NCBI GenBank assembly: GCA_946886875.1
Contig: CAMPJN010000126.1
Location: 1-9,572, forward strand
From: an uncultured Pseudomonas sp.
GTDB lineage: Bacteria > Pseudomonadota > Gammaproteobacteria > Pseudomonadales > Pseudomonadaceae
Direction of reading: 5' to 3'
Length of the DNA stretch: 9,572 bases
Numbering within the stretch: position 1 is the first letter of the stretch; every line of letters begins with the position of its first letter. The notes under the pieces are model-generated. The model searched no databases. It worked only from the letters and a program-made list of their open reading frames with translations, and had not been told where the DNA came from. The translations under genes and the position numbers were made by a program. This document shows, piece by piece, positions 1 to 9,572 of the stretch.

Positions 1-410
1 TGGACATGCTCTACTTCCACCTGGTCGATCAGCGCCAACATCACCATCACAGCTACTTCAGCCACTGGCCGCTGGTCTGGCTGGGGCTTTTGTTGCTGAG
101 CCTTGCGCTGCTGCGTCTGCGCCCGAACAGCTGGACGGCGCCGCTGGCAGTGGCCTTCGCCACCATGGGCATGCTGCATATGCTGCTCGACAGCATCGTC
201 GGCGATATCTGGTGGTTCGCCCCCTTCGTCGACCAGGCCTATGCGCTATTCAGCGTGCCCGCGCTCTATCAGCCCTGGTGGCTGAACTTCCTGCTGCATT
301 GGTCGTTCGGGCTGGAGCTGGCCCTGTGGGCATGGGCATTGCTGCTGTATCGCGCGCGCACCAGGGCGACACCGGCTTCAGCGGCATCAGCCGCCCTTAG
401 CGGTCGATAA
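1..410 (+). CDS. YdjM-like inner-membrane metal-dependent hydrolase, 5'-truncated
   Basis: The gene enters from the left edge (first full codon at 3) and ends at TAA 408-410; about 136 residues are visible. The Met at 6-8 lies in mid-sequence after an Asp, so I do not take it as the start. Numbered from that Met, there is a His-rich stretch HHHHSYFSHWP (12-22), a membrane segment (about 22-38), a second segment ending in HMLLDSIVGDIWWFAPF (58-74), and a final hydrophobic helix (about 92-115) followed by a basic tail. The 'H..LD...G...aPF' pattern plus an N-terminal 'HxHS..SH' fits the YdjM/DUF457 (PF04307) family of membrane proteins annotated as metal-dependent hydrolases; no substrate is firmly known. 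The gene converges on the truncated hemoglobin gene and overlaps its 3' end by 14 bp. The family call is from motifs only. Confidence 0.72.
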   Translation, partial: DMLYFHLVDQRQHHHHSYFSHWPLVWLGLLLLSLALLRLRPNSWTAPLAVAFATMGMLHMLLDSIVGDIWWFAPFVDQAYALFSVPALYQPWWLNFLLHWSFGLELALWAWALLLYRARTRATPASAASAALSGR

Positions 411-819
411 TCTGCCCACGCATCGGCGCCAGCCGTGCCAGCAGGCGATTCTGCGTCCGCATGGCGATGCCTTCGGCGCTCATCGCAATCTGCAAACTTT
501 CCACCAGGGCATTGAAGTCGCTGGGCGTGAGCTGCTGACCCTTGTGGCTTTCTTCCATGCTGTCGCCGCTGTACGTGCAAGGGCCGCCGGCTTCGACGCA
601 GAACTGCTCCACCAATTTGTCGCGCAGGCGCACGATATCGACGTTCTCGAAGTGACGGACGATGCGCTCGTCCCTGGCAATGTTCAGCAGCATGCCTTCG
701 ACGATGCGGGTGATCCCGGCCTGTTCGCCAAGCGCCCGATAGAGACTGTCGTCCTGCGGCGGTAGCGGCTGCGCGCAGGCCAACAGGCTCAAGAATGCGG
801 CCAACAGTGCGATACGCAT
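397..819 (-). CDS. Exported group 1 truncated hemoglobin (probable lipoprotein)
   Basis: 140 residues. I chose the ATG at 819-817: it gives a clean signal peptide and has a GGGAG about 9 nt upstream; the longer frame upstream only overlaps the DUF3034 gene. Residues 1-14 are a short signal peptide ending in LLAC (12-15), a plausible lipobox with Cys15. The globin part follows: 'LYRALGEQAGITRIVEG' (26-42) matches the family start, then 'DERIVRHF' (50-57), 'AGGPCTYSG' (77-85), and 'SMEESHKGQQLT' with His92 in the place of the proximal heme ligand F8. Truncated hemoglobins bind heme and react with O2 or NO. Most are cytoplasmic, so export is notable. The usual Phe-Tyr at B9-B10 appears as Met43-Leu44, so the distal pocket should differ. 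Cys74 and Cys81 could form a disulfide outside the cytoplasm. Last gene of the operon, 2 nt after the DUF3034 stop codon. Confidence 0.88.
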   Translation of the reverse strand: MRIALLAAFLSLLACAQPLPPQDDSLYRALGEQAGITRIVEGMLLNIARDERIVRHFENVDIVRLRDKLVEQFCVEAGGPCTYSGDSMEESHKGQQLTPSDFNALVESLQIAMSAEGIAMRTQNRLLARLAPMRGQIIDR

Positions 820-821
820 GC

Positions 822-1682
822 TCAGAAACTCCCCTGCACGGACAGGTAGGCGCCGTCCTGGTGATCGAGACCGGCGATGCTGCCCAGACGCGCGTACGCC
901 ACCACCACGGCCAGGTGTTTGTTGGGAAAGTAGCCGAGAAACAGATCGGACCAGTCGCTTTCGCCGGCAAAGCTCAGGTTGTCCGGCTTCTCGCGGTACT
1001 CCACGCCCAGCACCCAACGCGGGTTGAACAGCACCGCCAACGAGCCTTCTTGCAATAACGAGTGCCTGTCGCGGCGATCGCCGCCGAAGCCCAGCAGCCC
1101 CAACTCATTGGCCCGGCTATAGCGCACCCCGGCGTTGAGCAACAGGTTGTAGCCGAAGGCACCACCGAGGATCAGCCGACTGGCGTTGAGATAACCCTCG
1201 GTATCTTCGCTGCGTTGGGCGCCCACCAGGCCGGGGATAAGAAAGTCCTTCTGCCGCTTGTGCTGCAAGCCCAGAGAGACCTGAGGCAGGCGCTCGTAGA
1301 TCAGATCGCCGAACAGGCGCAGCTTGATGCCGAAGACATCCTGACTCAGGCTGTTTTCCGGCAAAGCGAGCCCCCGCGCCAGGTTGCCCAGGTCGAAGCG
1401 TTGTCGCGCATAGGACAGCTCCACCCGGTTGTCGAAAGCGGCCGCAACCCCCGCTGCATCGAGCCGGTAATCGCCGGTTTCCACCCGGGTGGCAAACGCC
1501 GTGGCGCCCCACTCGCCCCGCTCGCCATAACCGGACAGCACCGCCCAAGGGGTGATACCACCGCCCGCGGCGCCCTCGAGGCTGCTCGCGCCGCCCGTGG
1601 CGAGCAGACGACCATCGGCCGCCACCAGGCTCGGCAGCATGACCAGCAGAACGGCCGCAATTGATTTTAGCCAGCCCATCAT
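822..1682 (-). CDS. DUF3034 family outer-membrane-type protein
   Basis: 286 residues from the ATG at 1682-1680, which overlaps the TGA of the EAL gene as ATGA; a second ATG follows at once (1679-1677). A GGAG lies 5 or 8 nt upstream, suiting either. Residues 7-22 are a signal peptide with likely cleavage after VAA (20-22). The mature part has a Gly/Ala-rich start (GGASSLEGAAGGGITPW, 30-46) and then many short alternating segments with aromatic residues, e.g. VELSYARQRFDL (87-98), FGYNLLLNAGVRYS (176-189) and WVLGVEYREKPDNLSF (223-238). It ends in SVQGSF with a C-terminal Phe, the usual beta-signal of outer-membrane beta-barrels. This matches my memory of DUF3034 proteins, which have no established function. 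With a cupredoxin and an exported globin in the same operon, a barrel that holds or feeds these partners is possible, but that is inference. Confidence 0.85.
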   Translation of the reverse strand: MMGWLKSIAAVLLVMLPSLVAADGRLLATGGASSLEGAAGGGITPWAVLSGYGERGEWGATAFATRVETGDYRLDAAGVAAAFDNRVELSYARQRFDLGNLARGLALPENSLSQDVFGIKLRLFGDLIYERLPQVSLGLQHKRQKDFLIPGLVGAQRSEDTEGYLNASRLILGGAFGYNLLLNAGVRYSRANELGLLGFGGDRRDRHSLLQEGSLAVLFNPRWVLGVEYREKPDNLSFAGESDWSDLFLGYFPNKHLAVVVAYARLGSIAGLDHQDGAYLSVQGSF

Positions 1683-4024
1683 GGTCGCTCCATGTTCAAG
1701 GACAGGCTCAGCGGCTGCGCCATCCAGTTTTCGAAGGCCTGCGCCGCCAGGGGCCGGCTGATCAAATAGCCTTGGGCGGTATCGCATTGCCAGCCTCGCA
1801 ACAGCTGCAGGCTACGCTGGTATTCGACGCCCTCGGCTACCACCTTGAGGCCCAGACTGTGACTCATTTCGATGGTCGAACGGACGATCACCGAGTCTTC
1901 GCTGGCTTCGTCGAGGTCGCGGATAAAGGACTGATCGATCTTCAATTCCTGCACCGGCATCCGTTTGAGCTGGGTCAGCGAGGAATAGCCCGTACCGAAA
2001 TCATCCACCGACAGGCTGATGCCGCAATCATGCAACCCGTGCAACACCTGCAGGGCAACGGCGGGATTGAGCATCACCCCGCTCTCGGTGATCTCGAAAA
2101 TCAATTGCGTCGGCGCCACCTGATAACGCGCCAGCAGTTGTCGCACCCGGGTCGGCAACTGCGGGTCGATCAGATCCTCGGTGGAGATATTCAGCGACAT
2201 CTGCACCTGCAAACCGCGCGCGGTCCATTCGCGCAATTGCCGCAATACTTCTTCGATGACCCAGGCGGTGAGCAACTGAATACTGCCGGTGCGCTCGGCA
2301 AGCGGAATGAACTCACCCGGCGAAACCATGCCCAGCTCCGGATGTTGCCAGCGCAGCAAAGCCTCGGCCTGCAGCACTTTGACCCTGCGTATATCCAGCT
2401 TGGGCTGGTAATGCAGGAGCAACTCGCCATTTTCCGCTGCGCGATACAGATCGCGAATCAGCCGGATCTGGCGCTGATGGGCGGCGTCGCGGCCCTGCTG
2501 ATAAACCTGCAGACGCCCCGGCAGTTGCTCGGCGTCGCGCATGGCGATACCGGCGCGGCGCAACAGATCGTCCGGAGTGTCGCCATCGGCCGGAAAGGCG
2601 CTGATGCCGATCAGACATTCCACCTGTACCTCGTTGTTGCCGACCGACAGCGGTGTGAGTAGGGCACGCAAAATGCGGTCCGCCACCGCCACGGCGGTAT
2701 CGCTGTCGCAGCCGTCCAATTGCAGGAGGAACTCGTCGAGCAGCAGATGGGCCAGGCTATCGCCGGGACGCAGGCCGGCCTGCAATTGCCGGCCGAGTTG
2801 CTGAACGGCCAGATCGCCCGCTGCCGCGCCGTAACTGTCTTTGATCGCACGCAGATTACCGATACCGATATACAACAGCGCCACGGGCCGCCGCGCGGTG
2901 ATCGCAGTGCTCAGTCGTTCGAGCGCCAGGGTGCGATTGGGCAGGCCGGTCAGGCCGTCATGCAAGGCGTTATGCGCCAGTTGGCGCTCGCGTTCTGCAA
3001 TGCCCTGCTGCATCGCCTTGACCGATTTGGCCAGGCTGCCGAGTTCATCGTCGCGATCCAACTCCAGCGGCACATCATAGTCGCCCAGGCCGATCCGCTC
3101 GGTGGCGGAGGCGAGCCGCTGCACCGGTTTGGAGATAGTCCGCGCCAGCAGCAGCGCGCCGCCCAGGGACGCCAGCAGCGCCACCAAGGCGATCAACAGG
3201 ATGTCGCGATCCAGCGGTGCGAATGCCTCCCGTGCCTGGCTGAGCGACTTGTGCAGCAGCGCTCGCACGGCGAATCCTTCGCCACTGGCCAACAGCAGAC
3301 GCTGGCCCAGATAGCGTTCGCCGGCCAAGCGCTGCTCGCCGTCGGCGGGCACGACCGCAGCCGCCATGTCCTGCTGCAGTTGCTCGCGGGGTTTGTCGGG
3401 CAAGGTGCTGATCCAGGTTTCGGCGACGCCGTCCTGGGTCGCCACCAGCGTCAGGTCGAGATGGGTCAGCTCGCGCAACTCCGCGGCAAAACGCTGATCC
3501 ACTTCAAAGCCCATCATTACCCGGGCGATCGGCAAGGGTGCGGCAATCGTGGTTTGCACCAGCAGGTAGATGCCGTCGTCAATCGGCATCAGGAAAATCT
3601 GCACGCCTTCGCGCTGACGCCGCATGGCTTCCACACTCAGGCGCTGCGCCGTTTGCCCTTGGATCTGCGGATCGGTGCTGATCTCCAGGCGCCCATCCAA
3701 ACCCAGCATCATCACCGCATCGGCTTTGATCCGTGCACCGTGATTGGCCAATGCCGAGCGAATGGTCGCGTTGTCGCCGCTGGCTACCGCCGCCTTGAAG
3801 CCGAAGTCGGCGGCCAGTACCTGCACGGCGTCGAGCAATTGGCGGCCACGTACATCGAGCAACTGCTGAAAAACCAGGCTACCGACATCCAGCTGTTCGC
3901 GCGCCTGGCTACGCACCGCCGCATTGGTGGCGGTCTGCACGGCGAAATACAAGGCACAGACCACCACCGACAGCAGCAGGATCAGAACGCTGGCGATACG
4001 CGCTTGAAAACTATTGCGTAGCAT
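1679..4024 (-). CDS. Membrane c-di-GMP phosphodiesterase: periplasmic sensor, HAMP, degenerate GGDEF, intact EAL
   Basis: 781 residues; the ATG at 4024-4022 lies inside the end of the cupredoxin gene (14-bp overlap). Order: TM1 (about 10-30), periplasmic Cache-like sensor (about 31-273), TM2 (about 274-295), HAMP (about 296-348), GGDEF-type domain (about 354-510), EAL domain (about 520-770). The GGDEF signature reads LLDEF (428-432). The metal-binding 'DLD' position reads GIG (387-389), and the Asn of 'IND' is Lys395. Cyclase activity is therefore very unlikely. An RxxD (419-422) sits five residues before the motif, as in the c-di-GMP inhibitory site, so the domain may still bind ligand. The EAL domain keeps E554-A-L, N612, E644, DDFGTG (674-679), K695, E731, E734 and Q751, the set expected for c-di-GMP hydrolysis. 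Likely role: lowers c-di-GMP in response to a periplasmic cue, plausibly supplied by the co-encoded exported proteins. Confidence 0.93.
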   Translation of the reverse strand: MLRNSFQARIASVLILLLSVVVCALYFAVQTATNAAVRSQAREQLDVGSLVFQQLLDVRGRQLLDAVQVLAADFGFKAAVASGDNATIRSALANHGARIKADAVMMLGLDGRLEISTDPQIQGQTAQRLSVEAMRRQREGVQIFLMPIDDGIYLLVQTTIAAPLPIARVMMGFEVDQRFAAELRELTHLDLTLVATQDGVAETWISTLPDKPREQLQQDMAAAVVPADGEQRLAGERYLGQRLLLASGEGFAVRALLHKSLSQAREAFAPLDRDILLIALVALLASLGGALLLARTISKPVQRLASATERIGLGDYDVPLELDRDDELGSLAKSVKAMQQGIAERERQLAHNALHDGLTGLPNRTLALERLSTAITARRPVALLYIGIGNLRAIKDSYGAAAGDLAVQQLGRQLQAGLRPGDSLAHLLLDEFLLQLDGCDSDTAVAVADRILRALLTPLSVGNNEVQVECLIGISAFPADGDTPDDLLRRAGIAMRDAEQLPGRLQVYQQGRDAAHQRQIRLIRDLYRAAENGELLLHYQPKLDIRRVKVLQAEALLRWQHPELGMVSPGEFIPLAERTGSIQLLTAWVIEEVLRQLREWTARGLQVQMSLNISTEDLIDPQLPTRVRQLLARYQVAPTQLIFEITESGVMLNPAVALQVLHGLHDCGISLSVDDFGTGYSSLTQLKRMPVQELKIDQSFIRDLDEASEDSVIVRSTIEMSHSLGLKVVAEGVEYQRSLQLLRGWQCDTAQGYLISRPLAAQAFENWMAQPLSLSLNMERP

Positions 4025-4697
4025 CGACGGCTTTCTTGAAAGCATCGCCAAATGCGCTGCTCGGTTCGCTGAGCGTCGGCGCCGGGGCGACGCGCAATGC
4101 CACGACGAAACGCTGACGCACCTCGGCCGTACCGACCTGCACCTCGCCCGCCGGCTGTGGCAGCAAATCGGGCACCTGCGGGTGCCACAGGCTGGCCGCG
4201 TAACGCCCCGCCGGCAATGCATCGAACGCGACCTTGCCCTGCTCGTCCGCCACGGCGAACCAGGGGTCATCGGTCACATACACATAGCCGACCATCCAAT
4301 CATGGATATTGCAGCCCAGCACCACCACTCCCGGCTTGTCGAATATCACCGGTTCGCTCGGGGTGCCCTGATACAAGCGCAGCTCGAAACGCTTGACCGG
4401 CGAGAAGGAGTAAACGTGATGGCGAATATTGTCGCTGTTGGGAAAGGTCACCGCGGTGCCCGTGCGCACCGCCAGTACGCGGGGATTGAACTGCCGCGTC
4501 ACCTGGTCCATCACCGCGGTTTGCTGCACGGCGTCGTCAGCTAACGGCCCGCGCAACGTCAACAGCGCATCGCGCAGCGGCTGGCCCTGTTGATCGACCA
4601 ACTCGGCGTGCAGGCTGGCTGCCGATAGCGCAGAGCTGGCAAGCCAGCAGAAACTGGCCACGGCCAGACGCAACGGCTTCAGAAAATCATGAGTCAT
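4011..4697 (-). CDS. Exported cupredoxin-like protein ('methylamine utilization protein' type)
   Basis: 228 residues from the ATG at 4697-4695. An in-frame ATG at 4727 would add ten residues (MASVELEQTS) before the signal peptide; the shorter start gives a normal basic n-region, hydrophobic core and ALSA (23-26) cleavage site. Neither has a strong Shine-Dalgarno (GAG 9 nt before the chosen one). The mature protein has a cupredoxin fold pattern: 'VRTGTAVTFPNSDNIRHHVYSFS' at 77-99 with His93, then GCNIHDWMVGY (128-138) giving Cys129, His132 and Met135. These four are the ligands of a type-1 copper site. A segment after it (about 150-170, QGKVAFDALPAGRYAASLW) resembles a carboxypeptidase-regulatory-like beta-sandwich. 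Homologs are often named 'methylamine utilization protein', but no mau genes are present, so I would not infer methylamine metabolism. It is probably a periplasmic electron carrier or copper protein. First gene of the four-gene operon. Confidence 0.85.
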   Translation of the reverse strand: MTHDFLKPLRLAVASFCWLASSALSAASLHAELVDQQGQPLRDALLTLRGPLADDAVQQTAVMDQVTRQFNPRVLAVRTGTAVTFPNSDNIRHHVYSFSPVKRFELRLYQGTPSEPVIFDKPGVVVLGCNIHDWMVGYVYVTDDPWFAVADEQGKVAFDALPAGRYAASLWHPQVPDLLPQPAGEVQVGTAEVRQRFVVALRVAPAPTLSEPSSAFGDAFKKAVDATQ

Positions 4698-4746
4698 GCT
4701 TGTTTGCTCGAGTTCGACGCTAGCCATGCGGTGAGCTTAAGGAGCC

Positions 4747-4775
4747 CGTCAGCGTGGCGACTTCATACGTCAGTG
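4747..4775. promoter_or_regulatory. Candidate operator: direct repeat CGTCAG(C/T)G, 21-bp spacing
   Basis: CGTCAGCG at 4747-4754 and CGTCAGTG at 4768-4775 match at 7 of 8 bases and lie 21 bp apart start to start, i.e. two helical turns on the same DNA face. That is the typical arrangement of AraC-family half-sites. The pair lies about 50-80 bp upstream of the cupredoxin start codon and is next to an AraC-family gene. The geometry is seen directly; recognition by that regulator is inference, and a short repeat like this can occur by chance. Confidence 0.35.
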
Positions 4776-4813
4776 CCATGCAGATTAGCCGGCGAGTCGC
4801 TGCAGGTCACTTT

Positions 4814-4825
4814 TTGGATCGCCAA
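4814..4825. promoter_or_regulatory. Short palindrome TTGG-ATCG-CCAA, possible regulator site
   Basis: TTGG (4814-4817) and CCAA (4822-4825) form a perfect inverted repeat around ATCG. It is preceded by a run of T and lies in the operon's upstream spacer. The layout recalls an FNR/ANR box (TTGAT-N4-ATCAA), but only the outer three bases of each arm (TTG and CAA) agree, so I do not call it one. It is about 120 bp from the start codon. Confidence 0.2.
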
Positions 4826-4895
4826 CGAGAATTGAAGTGTTCTAAAACATGGGGCCGGCATAGTCGTCTGAGTTGCCGAACGGTTAAGGCGAAGG

Positions 4896-5648
4896 TCAGT
4901 CCGCGCGGCGCAGGCGTTTGGGCGTCAGGCCAAGGTAGCGGCGCATCGAATTGGTCAAAGCGCTCTGGCTGGAGAAACCGCACTCTTCGGCGATGCGGAT
5001 CAGCGGCATGCCACTTTCGCGGAGCAGACGGGCGGCAAGATCGAGACGGGATTTCAGCAGGTATTGATGTGGAGTGAGACCGACGCTGTCCTTGAACTGG
5101 GCATGAAAGTGGCTGGGGCTGAGGCACGCCACCTGGGCCAGTTCGGCGACGCTGATGCGCCGCGCCAGATTTTCCAGGATAAACGCATCGAGCCGTTCCA
5201 GATCCAGCGGCCCGGTAACCCGTTGCGCCTGCTCGCCGAACAAACGCAGGTGCAGGGCGCGCAACAACACGCCGCCAAGCGAGCGCGCCAACATCGGATC
5301 GCTGCCGTAACGCTCGAGCTCGGCACCGGCATAGCTGAGCAGGTGCTGGAAATCCACGTCCAGCTGCGGGTAACGCGGGGTCTCGAACAGATGGGTGAGC
5401 AGCTCCAGGTCTTCGCTGGAGGTGCCCTGCTCATTGAGGGCGATGATCAGGATGCGGTTGTCGCCGATACCGGCGAACTGGTGATCGGCATCGCCGGGCA
5501 CCAAACAGGCGCGCATGCGACATACCTCGCCACCGCGACCATTGACCTCGAATTCCGCGCGACCGGACAGCGACAACACCAGCTGATGGTGATCGTGGGT
5601 GTGTTCGTGAGCCTGGTGGTCAAGGTGCAGCAGGCGGGCTTTGAGCAT
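4896..5648 (-). CDS. AraC-family transcriptional regulator with His-rich cupin-like N-terminus
   Basis: 250 residues from the ATG at 5648-5646. The frame is open to another ATG at 5729, but the extra 27 residues are Cys-rich, do not look like the family, and overlap a candidate promoter at 5666-5696. No clear ribosome site precedes the chosen start. The N-terminal half (about 5-75) has the cupin pattern of AraC sensors: HEHTHDHHQLVLSLSG (14-29), then VPGDADHQF (50-58). Seven His fall within the first 21 residues, which could bind a ligand or metal. The C-terminal half has two helix-turn-helices: about 165-186 (ISVAELAQVACLSPSHFHAQF) and about 215-236 (IRIAEECGFSSQSALTNSM), then YLGLTPKRLRR (238-248), the family signature region. 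It is upstream of the operon on the same strand, so local control is plausible. The inducer is unknown. Confidence 0.9.
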   Translation of the reverse strand: MLKARLLHLDHQAHEHTHDHHQLVLSLSGRAEFEVNGRGGEVCRMRACLVPGDADHQFAGIGDNRILIIALNEQGTSSEDLELLTHLFETPRYPQLDVDFQHLLSYAGAELERYGSDPMLARSLGGVLLRALHLRLFGEQAQRVTGPLDLERLDAFILENLARRISVAELAQVACLSPSHFHAQFKDSVGLTPHQYLLKSRLDLAARLLRESGMPLIRIAEECGFSSQSALTNSMRRYLGLTPKRLRRAD

Positions 5649-5892: not shown

Positions 5893-6606
5893 ATGGAACT
5901 CAGCATCGCCTTGGGCCTGGCCTTGGCGCTTTTCGTCCTCGGCCAATGGCTCACCCGACGTGCCGCACACCGTCATCGACATACCCTAAGCCAATTGCAA
6001 TGCGCCACTTTGCAGCGCGCCCTGGAATTGTTGCCGGCCGTGCAAAAGCATCGTGGCCTCGGTGCACAGCAGGACATCGCCAGCGTCAGCCAGCGCAATG
6101 CCCTCGCTCGCGAACTCGACCAGCTGTGGCTGAATTGGCCGGGGGAAAGCCTGCAATTGGCGCCGCTGCATCAGGATTGGCCGCAACTAAGGCGCAAGCC
6201 GGCGGATTTCGAGGCGCATTGCCAGATGATCGAAGCATTGCTGATCGTTATCGAACAGCTGGAAGATCGCCTGCGCCTGACGGACAAGCCACAGCTGCAG
6301 GGGATTGCCGCGGCTTGTCACACCCTCGAGGATCTGGCGCGCCTGCGCGGGCTGGCGGTACGTGCAGCCAACTACACGCGCTGCCCGGCTGGGCTGAAGA
6401 TGCAGATGCATCTGCTCTGCCAACGCCTGCAGCATGCCGAGCAACCCGAGCCGCTGAATAGCCTGCTGCAGCGCCTGCAAAACGATCTGATCGATGCGCC
6501 CCAGGTACGCCTGGCGCCCAGCGATTGCTTCGCCCTGCTCAGCCCGCCGATCGAGGAGCACCTGCTGCGCCTGCATATGTCGTTCGCCGAGCAACTGGCC
6601 TCCTGA
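5893..6606 (+). CDS. Membrane-anchored helical protein, remotely NIT (nitrate/nitrite-sensing) domain-like
   Basis: 237 residues. The start is set by AAGGA 7 nt before the ATG at 5893. Residues 4-20 form one membrane helix, then RRAAHRHRH (22-30), so the rest should be cytoplasmic by the positive-inside rule. The remainder is Leu/Gln-rich and reads as all-alpha. Two segments stand out about 98 residues apart: LLPAVQKHRGLGAQQ (46-60) and LEDLARLRGLAVRAAN (145-160). Each has the 'RGL' signature which in NIT domains (PF08376) reads 'LQxERGLS'. NIT domains are four-helix sensors of nitrate/nitrite, usually fused to an output domain; here no output domain is present. The assignment is tentative: it could be a degenerate NIT protein or an unrelated helical protein. 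It lies divergent from the AraC-family gene, and 189 nt precede the next gene, so it is probably monocistronic. Confidence 0.8.
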   Translation: MELSIALGLALALFVLGQWLTRRAAHRHRHTLSQLQCATLQRALELLPAVQKHRGLGAQQDIASVSQRNALARELDQLWLNWPGESLQLAPLHQDWPQLRRKPADFEAHCQMIEALLIVIEQLEDRLRLTDKPQLQGIAAACHTLEDLARLRGLAVRAANYTRCPAGLKMQMHLLCQRLQHAEQPEPLNSLLQRLQNDLIDAPQVRLAPSDCFALLSPPIEEHLLRLHMSFAEQLAS

Positions 6607-6680
6607 GGTGGGGTAACCCCGGTCAAGCGTGGCAGTATGCAGCGATTATGCTGGGAGCGGCCAACCCTGCCAGACTCTCA

Positions 6681-6708
6681 GGCGCACATAGCGCCGGGCA
6701 GTATTTTT
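6681..6708 (+). terminator. Weak terminator-like hairpin after the NIT-like gene
   Basis: GGCGC (6681-6685) and GCGCC (6691-6695) form a perfect 5-bp stem around ACATA, followed eight bases later by TTTTT (6704-6708). The stem is G+C-rich, but the T run is not directly adjacent, so this is a poor intrinsic terminator at best. It lies 75 nt past the stop codon, in the 189-nt gap before the inhibitor gene. Confidence 0.22.
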
Positions 6709-6795
6709 CGCTTCAACAAACGCTTCGCCACGGCATCAAAGGGATACCCTTCAGCTCTTAGCCCAGATCCCCTTCATCAATCACAGGAGCCGCCG

Positions 6796-7185
6796 ATGAC
6801 CACCTTACGCTTGCTGCCAACCCTAGGCTTGGCATTGCTGAGCGGCTGCGCCCACAGCCCAGACAGCCTGACCTTGCAACAACAAAGTCAATGTCCGCTA
6901 AGCCTTGGCAATGGCCAGTCCCTGCTGCTGACACTGCCAAGCAATCCCACTACCGGCTTTCGTTGGGTGCTGCGCGATGACGCCGACGCGGTGCTCGAGC
7001 GCCTTGGCCCGGAGGTTTACAGCAACCCCGAAGATAGCGGGCTGGTGGGCAGCGCCGGCCTGTCGACTTGGCGTTTCAAGGTCAAACAGGCTGGCGCAGG
7101 CAATCTGCAGCTGACCTACCAACGGCCCTGGGAAACCGAGGTAGCGCCAGCAAAAACCTTCGATTGCGCCATCGAAGTGCGCTAG
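6796..7185 (+). CDS. Chagasin-like (I42 family) cysteine-protease inhibitor lipoprotein
   Basis: 129 residues. AGGAG at 6785-6789, 6 nt before the ATG at 6796, fixes the start; in-frame codons upstream to 6637 lack such a site. Residues 1-17 are a signal peptide ending in the lipobox LLSGC with Cys18. The next residue is Ala, not Asp, so sorting to the outer membrane is expected. The mature part has the three inhibitory loops of chagasin proteins: NPTTGF (50-55), GLVGSAG (82-88, the 'GxxGxxG'-type loop) and RPWE (110-113). In known members these loops enter the active site of papain-like cysteine proteases. The length fits the family. No cysteine protease is encoded nearby, so the target may be a host or competitor enzyme, or a periplasmic one elsewhere in the genome. 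Cys33 and Cys124 could pair. Confidence 0.92.
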   Translation: MTTLRLLPTLGLALLSGCAHSPDSLTLQQQSQCPLSLGNGQSLLLTLPSNPTTGFRWVLRDDADAVLERLGPEVYSNPEDSGLVGSAGLSTWRFKVKQAGAGNLQLTYQRPWETEVAPAKTFDCAIEVR

Positions 7186-7335
7186 GAGCCAGTTATTTCG
7201 CGAGTTCCTCGTTCGCTTTGGCGACGCCGCTAAATCGCTCCGGCGGACCGCTCGCTCGGTCGTCATCCCATCGAACAAGCGCGGGGGCAATAAATGGGCT
7301 ATAGCAAGTAGACATACACAACTCAGGAAAACAAC
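7186..7335. other. Structured spacer with two adjacent hairpins, possible dispersed repeat
   Basis: No gene is supported in these 150 bp. Two perfect 5-bp stems abut: CGCCG/CGGCG (7225-7229 with 7241-7245, 11-nt loop) and GACCG/CGGTC (7246-7250 with 7257-7261, 6-nt loop). Neither is followed by a T run, so they are not typical terminators. The reverse strand is open across the region (part of a 151-codon frame, 7353-6898), but that frame continues antisense through the inhibitor gene and has no support. The sequence reminds me of intergenic Pseudomonas segments that recur and get miscalled as short proteins; that is memory, not proof. The 3' end (about 7290-7335) is A+T-richer and carries the ribosome site of the next gene. 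Confidence 0.35.
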
Positions 7336-7911
7336 ATGATGGATATTAGGCATGCAGTCGGCCTGCTCCTCATGCTTGCATGGTTATCGGGTTGTAGCAG
7401 TCTGCTCCCCAGCGAACGGGAGGAAGCACTGTCCCCTTTCGATGACTACCTCGATGCGGAAATACGTTATTCCCAGGCCAAACCCGGGATGACCACTCGT
7501 TCCGAACTCTTCGCCCTGGGCTTCGACCCACTGGCCGAAGGCAACGGCAAGATGCTCTCTTTTATCGACCTGCGTCTGATGTTCGTGCAGCCGAACGTTC
7601 CCATCGAGTATCTACCCGATGGCCTGCTGCGGTGCCTGGAGGCCAAGGACCGTTGCGTGGGTTACTCGTTCGAGTTCAACAAGACCGACACCCAGCGGGT
7701 CGGTAATTTCTGGGCCGACGCCTTCAACTTTCGCAAGAAACGCGAATTGCAGGGCTGGGTCTTCCGCGCGGTTTTCGTGCTGGTGGACGACACGCTGGTG
7801 CACAAAGTCAGCAATGGCGAGCCGAACATCCGGCGCTTTGAGGTCAAACGCAATCCGCTCGGGCCGTTGCAGGGTGCTGGCGAGTTCTTTTCCGATCAGT
7901 TGAGAAAGTAA
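7336..7911 (+). CDS. Lipoprotein of unknown function with SmpA/BamE-like N-terminal motif
   Basis: 191 residues. AGGA at 7325-7328, 7 nt before the ATG at 7336, supports this start; a second ATG follows at once. Signal peptide 1-19 ends in LSGC with Cys20 as the lipidated residue. Ser and Ser follow, so outer-membrane sorting is expected. After a short linker, '[21 protein letters not shown]' (45-65) matches the 'pGmT..ev...lG.p' opening of SmpA/OmlA (BamE-like) folds. Later parts, '[15 protein letters not shown]' (94-108) with Cys94 and Cys101, and '[24 protein letters not shown]' (132-155), look like the following beta-strands. It is longer than BamE (about 110-120 residues) and I do not recognise a named gene. 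It could help outer-membrane assembly or simply use the fold. Unlinked in function to the cmo genes downstream as far as I can see. Confidence 0.87.
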
Positions 7912-8008: not shown

Positions 8009-8752
8009 GTGACCAAGCAACCCGACCGCCTGTTTGCCCAGCCCTTGCCCCAGGTGCCCGACTTCGCCTTCAACGAAGACGTGGTGCGGGTGTTCCCGGA
8101 CATGATCAAGCGCTCGGTGCCCGGTTACCCGACCATAGTCGAGAATATCGGCGTACTGGCCGGGCAGTTCGCCCAGCCGCACAGCCTGCTGTATGACCTG
8201 GGCAGCTCCCTGGGCGCGGTGACCCAGGCGCTACGCCGCCACGTGCAGATCGAAGACTGCCGGGTGATTGCGGTGGACAACTCCAGCGCCATGGTCGAAC
8301 GCTGCCGCGAATACCTGCATGCCCAGGACTCGATGTTCCAGGAGCTGCTGCCGGTCGAAGTGATCGAGGCCGATATCCTTAGCCTGGAGCTGCAACCGGC
8401 GTCCCTGGTGGCGTTGAACTTCACTCTGCAATTTATCCGCCCCGAGCAACGTCTCGAACTGCTGACCCGGATTCGTCAGGCCTTGTTACCGGGCGGCGCG
8501 CTGATCCTCTCGGAGAAGCTGCGTTTCGAGGACGCCGAGCAACACGAGCTGCTGAACGATCTGCATATCGCCTTCAAACGCGCCAATGGTTATAGCGAAC
8601 TGGAAATTGCCCAGAAGCGCAGCGCCATCGAGAAGGTCATGCTGCCCGACAGCCTGGAGCAGCACCGCGAACGTCTGCTCGCCGCCGGTTTCAGCAAGGT
8701 ATTGCCCTGGTTCCAGTGCCTTAATTTCGCCTCTTTGATTGCCCTGCCATGA
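8009..8752 (+). CDS. cmoA: Carboxy-S-adenosyl-L-methionine synthase CmoA
   Basis: 247 residues from the GTG at 8009, the same length as E. coli CmoA; the protein opens (M)[12 protein letters not shown] as in other Pseudomonas CmoA proteins. An in-frame TTG at 7955 would add 18 residues unlike the family. No ribosome site is evident. CmoA converts SAM plus prephenate to carboxy-SAM (Cx-SAM) and phenylpyruvate, the carbon donor for uridine-5-oxyacetic acid at tRNA wobble position 34. The SAM-binding motif YDLGSSLGA lies at 62-70. Aligned by eye with E. coli CmoA, Tyr40, Asp90, Asp122, Asn137 and Arg204 fall at the positions of Tyr39, Asp89, Asp117, Asn132 and Arg199; that Arg is a known Cx-SAM contact supplied across the dimer. 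'[12 protein letters not shown]' (189-200) and '[10 protein letters not shown]' (234-243) are strongly family-like. Its stop overlaps the cmoB start (ATGA). Confidence 0.97.
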
Positions 8753-9572
8753 TCAGCCGTCTCGACCTCGATGCCCTGCAAGCGCAGCTGGCAGGCACCC
8801 CGCTGCAGGACTGGGCCGCAGGCCTGCCGGGGCAAATAGATACCAAGCTGGCCATCGGTCATGGCGACCTACAGCGCTGGTACGGCGCGGTGCAGGCGTT
8901 GCCGGCGCTGCACGTCGAACAACTGGAGCTGCTCGATGCTTTCACCTTTAGTGGCCCCTGCGATGAGGCAACCCGTGCCGAGCTGAAAAGCGCACTGCAA
9001 GGGCTGATTCCCTGGCGCAAAGGCCCCTTCGAGCTGTTCGGCGTGCATGTGGATACCGAGTGGCGTTCGGATTGGAAATGGCAGCGCGTCGCCCCCTATC
9101 TCGACCTGACCGGCAAACGCGTGCTGGATGTCGGCTGCGGCAATGGCTACTACATGTGGCGCATGCTCGGCGCAGGAGCCGATAGCGTGGTCGGCATCGA
9201 CCCCAACTGGCTGTTCCTCTGCCAGTTCCTGGCGATGAAGAACTACCTGCCCGACCTGCCCGCCTGGCACCTGCCGCTGGCCTTCGAGGAACTCCCCGGC
9301 AAGCTGCAAGGCTTCGATACGGTGTTTTCCATGGGCGTGCTCTATCACCGTCGCTCGCCCATCGATCACCTGATCGATCTCAAGGACTGCCTGGTCAAGG
9401 ACGGCGAACTGGTGCTGGAAACCCTGGTGGTGGAAGGCGATGCCCAGCAGGTGCTGGTGCCCGAGGACCGCTATGCGCAGATGCGCAACGTCTGGTTCCT
9501 GCCCTCGGTACCGGCGCTGGAGTTGTGGCTGCGCCGCGCCGGCTTCGTCGATGTGCGCTGCGTCGACGTCAA
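8749..9572 (+). CDS. cmoB: tRNA U34 carboxymethyltransferase CmoB, 3'-truncated
   Basis: 274 residues are visible and the frame stays open to the right edge; E. coli CmoB has 323, so about 50 are missing. The ATG at 8749 overlaps the cmoA stop as ATGA, indicating translational coupling. CmoB transfers the carboxymethyl group of Cx-SAM to 5-hydroxyuridine at position 34, giving cmo5U and wider wobble decoding. The N-terminal helical part is followed by '[25 protein letters not shown]' (87-111), with Lys91 and Trp105 at the known Cx-SAM contact positions. The methyltransferase core has [16 protein letters not shown] (125-140), [10 protein letters not shown] (147-156) and '[16 protein letters not shown]' (189-204), where Met195 and Tyr199 correspond to E. 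coli Met196 and Tyr200. 'ETLVVEG' (224-230) follows. Start and product are secure. Confidence 0.97.

Follow-up and report, generated by a model that had tools for sequence, protein, structure and literature searches.

A DUF3034 barrel, an exported globin and a blue-copper protein as candidate inputs to exchangeable envelope signalling proteins in proteobacteria

In the NspS-MbaA and YfiBNR systems, a c-di-GMP enzyme of the membrane is governed across the envelope by a partner that is periplasmic or a lipoprotein: a binding protein in one case, YfiR together with an OmpA-like lipoprotein in the other. Globins are tied to signalling outputs, c-di-GMP enzymes included, in the globin-coupled sensors. 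According to the available portions of two further reports, periplasmic CHASE4 domains of Pseudomonas aeruginosa c-di-GMP proteins sense iron by direct binding (IsmP-ImcA; PMC10904736), and heme and copper are sensed by direct binding in CHASE4 c-di-GMP receptors of the same species (PMC13277305).

The locus analysed here differs from NspS-MbaA and YfiBNR in that its candidate partners comprise a cupredoxin, a globin and a barrel, and its output changes from one family to another; Pfam detected no OmpA-like lipoprotein or YfiR domain in the four proteins. As in the globin-coupled sensors, a globin is found with a signalling output, but it is encoded by a separate exported TrHb1 gene and is not a domain of the transducer polypeptide. 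IsmP-ImcA and the CHASE4 receptors, as far as the available parts of their descriptions go, read heme, iron or copper through a periplasmic CHASE-type domain on the c-di-GMP protein, whereas here the metal sites lie on separate exported proteins; the words operon, azurin, cupredoxin and neighbor do not occur in the available portion of the study of P. aeruginosa PA2072 (PMC13277305). No description of the four-gene set was found in the literature searched, which consisted of listings rather than full texts.

The window (the whole stretch of DNA analysed, 9,572 nt from an uncultured Pseudomonas sp., contig CAMPJN010000126.1) carries four consecutive genes on its minus strand, identified as open reading frames and, for the last three, by Pfam: a cupredoxin gene, the first of the operon (4011..4697, 228 aa), an EAL-protein gene (1679..4024, 781 aa), a DUF3034 gene (822..1682, 286 aa) and a globin gene (397..819, 140 aa). 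The cupredoxin and EAL genes overlap by 14 bp, the EAL and DUF3034 genes share a 4-bp ATGA overlap, and 2 nt separate DUF3034 from the globin gene, exactly as an earlier note on this DNA had described the arrangement. A simple promoter scan of the locus returned no promoter-like site and terminator-like sites were no commoner than in shuffled sequence, so that the argument for co-transcription is that of the gene overlaps; signal peptides of the module proteins were judged by eye. Over 14 bases (397-410), the globin gene overlaps the 3′ end of a convergent plus-strand reading frame (6-410) that enters from the window edge. Elsewhere in the window, an exported-looking chagasin-family (I42) peptidase inhibitor was recognised by Pfam at 6796-7185, followed by CmoA and CmoB (8009-9570). 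An AraC-type regulator (4896-5648) was considered as a member of the module and set aside, a relative being present in only 8 of the 35 family regions fetched; a methylamine utilization (mau) cluster was likewise rejected, as no methylamine dehydrogenase was found among the nine window proteins scanned with Pfam.

The EAL protein matched the Pfam profiles for EAL (252 bits), GGDEF (96.6), HAMP (56.2) and dCache_3 (36.1, cut-off 25.7), and by this domain content it is an inner-membrane transducer with a periplasmic dCache_3 domain, a HAMP domain, a degenerate GGDEF domain and an EAL domain with intact catalytic residues. Residues E554, N612, E644, D674, D675, K695, E731 and Q751, which we take to have the catalytic roles, are all present in the window protein, and across 91 aligned rows they are kept, the exceptions being a single Q-to-R change and, at each site, one or two gaps. 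The GGDEF motif of the window reads LLDEF and thus departs from the intact motif of an active diguanylate cyclase; the strict motif is found in 41 of the 91 rows. Because the EAL catalytic residues are intact and the GGDEF motif is often degenerate, lowered c-di-GMP is the likely output in this organism, in agreement with the earlier proposal for this protein. None of the His, Cys and Met positions in the sensor region (25-290) reaches 90% conservation, which fits a protein partner but would also agree with an unrelated small ligand.

The protein encoded at 4011..4697 gave no Pfam match and is nevertheless an amicyanin-like type-1 cupredoxin: a profile of 31 relatives matched the NirK cupredoxin domains, pseudoazurin and amicyanin among PDB sequences, its AlphaFold2 model (pLDDT 90.8) matched the folds of amicyanin and NirK at E about 1e-6, and the type-1 copper ligands H93, C129, H132 and M135 are invariant in 34 sequences. 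Type-1 copper sites are electron-transfer sites. The ligand loop, C-x2-H-x2-M, is presumably also that of amicyanin, and the fold is common to amicyanin and NirK-type cupredoxin domains; unlike amicyanin, the window protein has an extra C-terminal domain and, as its genetic partner, a receptor rather than methylamine dehydrogenase. From a weak Pfam match, below the cut-off, in the homologue at locus L127, we infer that this C-terminal part is carboxypeptidase-regulatory-like. The model begins with an N-terminal helix at 3-22, and the cupredoxin is smaller at kinase and chemoreceptor loci.

DUF3034 (PF11231) was matched over its full length (365.7 bits against a cut-off of 25; profile positions 1-255 of 255), and its model is a predicted 12-stranded outer-membrane beta-barrel with an N-terminal helix at 2-14, the N-terminal segment being very conserved. 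The fold matches of the barrel included FapF, KdgM and the COG4313 channel, with PcoB far below them. The outer-membrane barrel fold is common to these proteins and DUF3034, but at about 7-14% identity the likeness is one of fold alone, and no function was read from the matches. No functional description of DUF3034 was found in the literature listings searched (full texts were not part of the search), in which one mention is apparently a slip for DUF3037 and another is a row of an actinobacterial table. In one genome (L117), the gene is broken by an in-frame TAG.

The globin matched Bac_globin (PF01152) at 50.1 bits against a cut-off of 21, and its PDB relatives are HbN and GlbN. Its signal ends in the lipobox LLAC, so that it reads as an exported group-1 truncated globin and a lipoprotein; a simple pattern for the lipobox gave 41 matches, at least two of them oddly placed (L122 and L192). 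The proximal His (His92 in the window) is present in 136 of 136 globins and the Phe in 133 of 136, sites that we take to be F8 and CD1, respectively. The Cys pair (Cys74/Cys81 in the window) is complete in 131 of the 136 and wholly lacking in 5, with a single Cys never found, an all-or-none pattern as expected of a periplasmic disulfide. The protein thus has the TrHb1 family, the proximal His and the CD1 Phe in common with HbN (PDB 1idr), and differs from it in being exported, in its conserved Cys pair and, for part of the globin family, in the lipobox.

Conservation of the gene set was examined in a Pseudomonadaceae-like family sample, centred on a genome with a CmoA 82% identical to that of the window. 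DUF3034 was found in 52 of the 198 genomes, with one match each, and was absent from the 14 well-known genomes used as controls. The surrounding region was retrieved for 35 of the 52 matches, and 31 of these contain all four genes in the order of the window, bearing out the earlier statement that the genes travel together in Pseudomonas; the flanks vary between genomes while the four genes stay together. In a separate database listing of DUF3034 relatives, the named ones among the best matches listed are mostly Pseudomonas and its kin. The four exceptions are L207, L208, L209 and L210, the last a fragment. In L207, DUF3034 and the globin are distant from those of the window (37% and 36% identity), and a convergent set of fasciclin, RskA anti-sigma and ECF genes stands in place of the cupredoxin and EAL genes. 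At L208 (8012-8955) and L209 (7983-8881), neither the cupredoxin gene nor the EAL gene is present, DUF3034 lacks its first 112 residues, the AraC flank and the globin are kept, and about 140 bases lie between AraC and the remainder; the barrel is broken where the transducer is lost, which fits functional coupling but may reflect a single deletion event.

Outside the family, all four genes are present in other orders on Caballeronia, Paraburkholderia and Novosphingobium plasmids, and a second Novosphingobium plasmid carries DUF3034 and the globin with an ECF set instead. The four genes occur together in alpha-, beta- and gammaproteobacteria, with gene order differing by lineage and flanks changing; in this survey of neighbourhoods across proteobacteria, a linkage confined to close relatives, the outcome against which the earlier note had set its reading, is contradicted. 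One class sample contained DUF3034 in 18 of its 369 genomes and a second in 11 of its 289, counting the centre genome of each (L067 and L085). Wide regions were fetched for 26 of these 29 matches, the other three being the two centre genomes and G212, a fragment. Of the 26, a globin is adjacent in 19 and lacking in 7, no output was found in 10, a cupredoxin and a signalling gene are present in 14, and DUF3034, globin, cupredoxin and signalling gene together in 13. Over all labelled loci, a globin is adjacent in 137 of 145 and lacking in 8, and the full set of four elements occurs in 108. The 80 named loci are the best 80 of at least 489 confirmed relatives, ranked against a Novosphingobium sequence, so that Sphingomonadales are over-represented and the class samples are the fairer base. 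These neighbourhoods mark DUF3034 and the globin as a tightly linked pair. A divergent DUF3034 clade (L129-L132) lacks the globin and has neighbours that look, by eye, like sulfide:quinone-type flavoproteins, L129 having a PAS-sigma54 regulator as a neighbour as well. Eight loci (L177, L178, L184, L185, L189, L192, L194 and L206) carry a second, convergent EAL or GGDEF-EAL gene right after the globin, 0.4-0.5 kb from the DUF3034 end.

The outputs at 145 DUF3034 loci comprised GGDEF/EAL proteins (93), histidine kinases (9), ECF sigma factors (9), Cache-only proteins (7) and a chemoreceptor (1), and none was found at 26, of which 7 are near a contig end and 5 have a cupredoxin. Pfam analysis of representatives recognised HAMP-PAS-HisKA-HATPase kinases, a chemoreceptor and ECF sigma factors next to RskA or ChrR-type proteins; three sensors without an output gave weak Cache or HAMP matches below the Pfam cut-offs. 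On a DUF3034 tree of 73 rows (25 non-c-di-GMP rows plus 48 of the 92 c-di-GMP rows, taken at random with a few chosen, the 'none' rows and L120, L121, L125, L129 and L141 being left out), the five output labels require at least 8 changes, compared with a possible minimum of 4 and an average of 23.9 for shuffled labels; a quick tree of 143 rows, with L117 and L209 dropped as short, gave 10 label changes. Within 1.5 kb of DUF3034 or the globin, 118 signalling genes lie in 417.7 kb (0.28 per kb), and at 4.5-7.5 kb there are 9 in 725.6 kb (0.012 per kb), a contrast of about 23-fold that is partly circular for the kinase, sigma and sensor classes because their profiles were derived from these same loci; GGDEF/EAL genes alone give the fairer comparison, 101 in 417.7 kb versus 6 in 725.6 kb. 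Judged by gene neighbourhood and tree, the signalling output of the DUF3034-globin module is repeatedly exchanged and is not tied to c-di-GMP. The idea of an envelope module controlling c-di-GMP, put forward for this DNA earlier, stands as regards the conserved anatomy of the module, but did not foresee the outputs found elsewhere, namely kinases, a chemoreceptor, sigma factors and cyclases.

Some of these loci have further components. In L056, an adenylate/guanylate cyclase with a 2Fe-2S ferredoxin domain (6055-7836) ends just before DUF3034; this locus was tallied as 'none'. Small exported proteins resembling HiPIP, with weak matches below the Pfam cut-off, adjoin DUF3034 and the globin in L035 (9304-9582) and L128 (7281-7622), where no cupredoxin was found. 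Six Lysobacterales loci (L040, L044, L048, L067, L073 and L084) have a membrane sensor between the cupredoxin and DUF3034, about 330-375 aa where measured and with no recognised output domain in the three scanned with Pfam (L067, L073 and L084). Upstream of DUF3034-globin in L066, L068, L072 and L075, local profiles identified an ECF sigma factor, a ChrR-type cupin and a secreted PF03640 repeat protein, with Pfam run on the L075 and L068 members.

Pairing of the cupredoxin with the transducer was then compared at loci with and without DUF3034. At DUF3034 loci, the cupredoxin is present with 91 of 93 GGDEF/EAL outputs, all 9 kinases, all 7 Cache-only proteins and the one chemoreceptor, and at 1 of the 9 ECF loci. 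In L134, the kinase carries the cupredoxin as a fusion at its C-terminus; two public proteins match this kinase in length, have the same cupredoxin end and, being 84-86% identical over the part searched, represent one lineage. Above 100 bits, the cupredoxin profile matched 30 of 369 genomes, compared with 18 of 369 for DUF3034; with the limit set at E 1e-6 it matched 87 of 369, many of the lower-scoring matches spanning the cupredoxin domain only. All 30 genomes above 100 bits were examined, and the regions of 16 of them were enlarged, in several of which the simple gene caller found nothing. By hand count, a transducer adjoins the cupredoxin, or is one gene away (two cases), in 24 of the 30 and is lacking in 6, with three of the 24 (L235-L237) assigned by profile match only at weak scores of 51-67 bits. 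Among the genomes without DUF3034, 13 of 19 have a transducer beside the cupredoxin (again by hand, three on weak scores). There the outputs behind dCache_3-HAMP include adenylate cyclase (L242 and L248), histidine kinase (L245, with dCache_3 and HAMP below the Pfam cut-offs) and Ser/Thr kinase (L251). In this last locus, the dCache_3-HAMP receptor with its eukaryotic-like Ser/Thr protein kinase output (2532-5225) adjoins the cupredoxin. Several cupredoxin loci lacking DUF3034 encode another exported-looking protein that may, tentatively, be an outer-membrane barrel; the candidates in L243 and L250 gave weak Pfam matches below the cut-off. As far as gene neighbourhood tells, the cupredoxin-Cache pair is a wider unit that occurs also without DUF3034 and the globin.

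Taking these data together, we lean towards the operon being a trans-envelope receptor, in which the dCache_3 domain would read the cupredoxin, the barrel and globin would serve as the front end and the EAL domain would provide the output; with slightly greater confidence, the DUF3034-globin-cupredoxin set is probably an input module for interchangeable transducers. The direct basis for this, as read from sequence, is the anatomy of the module, the conserved metal and catalytic residues, the linkage of the genes and the repeated exchange of the output. In the proposed mechanism, the DUF3034 barrel in the outer membrane, with the globin anchored at or near it, would admit and capture a diatomic or redox-active ligand, most likely O2 or NO. 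The globin heme would exchange electrons with the type-1 copper site of the cupredoxin; this gas or redox relay from globin to copper is a tentative part of the scheme that we think may well be wrong. The cupredoxin would be the periplasmic partner of the dCache_3 domain, and its state, whether redox or bound versus free, would move dCache_3 and HAMP and so set the EAL phosphodiesterase, which would lower c-di-GMP in this organism, while in other lineages the same input would pass to kinases, chemoreceptors or sigma factors.

The gene set could also be an effector operon, in which the exported globin and cupredoxin handle NO or O2 or transfer electrons in the periplasm, the barrel imports their substrate and the transducer senses an unrelated cue, simply staying linked to the genes that it serves. 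Globin, cupredoxin and the HiPIP-like proteins (weak matches, below cut-off) are indeed of electron-transfer type, ECF sigma/anti-sigma neighbours would normally regulate such genes (8 of the 9 ECF loci lack the cupredoxin), and for cable bacteria, in the available portion of the report, fusions of truncated globin domains with periplasmic pentaheme cytochromes are proposed to be periplasmic oxidases (PMC11976967). However, the cupredoxin keeps a transducer in 13 of 19 genomes without DUF3034, a cupredoxin-kinase fusion exists, and, where an output could be labelled (119 loci), it is a c-di-GMP enzyme and not a transcription factor in 93; we regard the effector reading as unlikely.

A sensor of copper ions, with Cache reading the loading of a copper-binding cupredoxin, the barrel as the copper route and the globin as an accessory, would leave the globin adjacent in 137 of 145 loci unexplained, and we consider it improbable: type-1 sites are generally sites of electron transfer, PcoB ranks far below FapF, KdgM and the COG4313 channel among the barrel matches, and no copper-resistance domain was found in the Pfam scan of nine window proteins. 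Variation of gene order between lineages is what might be expected of a chance or hitch-hiking neighbourhood, but the persistence of the four genes together in alpha-, beta- and gammaproteobacteria though flanks change, and the strong near/far contrast of signalling genes, make this explanation highly implausible.

Returning to the trans-envelope receptor, it may belong to a general class in which Cache-HAMP and related membrane receptors, with at least six outputs (GGDEF-EAL, histidine kinase, chemoreceptor, adenylate cyclase, Ser/Thr kinase and ECF sigma/anti-sigma), have a secreted blue-copper protein as their signal-bearing partner; in the DUF3034 branch, an outer-membrane channel and an exported globin with a disulfide would be added, forming a front end for O2/NO from which electrons go to copper. 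We offer this wider scheme as a speculative possibility. If true, DUF3034 would be placed as an outer-membrane barrel in a sensory module and exported truncated globins would gain a role, and the cell would read the gas or redox state outside its inner membrane by way of a copper protein and pick its response by swapping the transducer.
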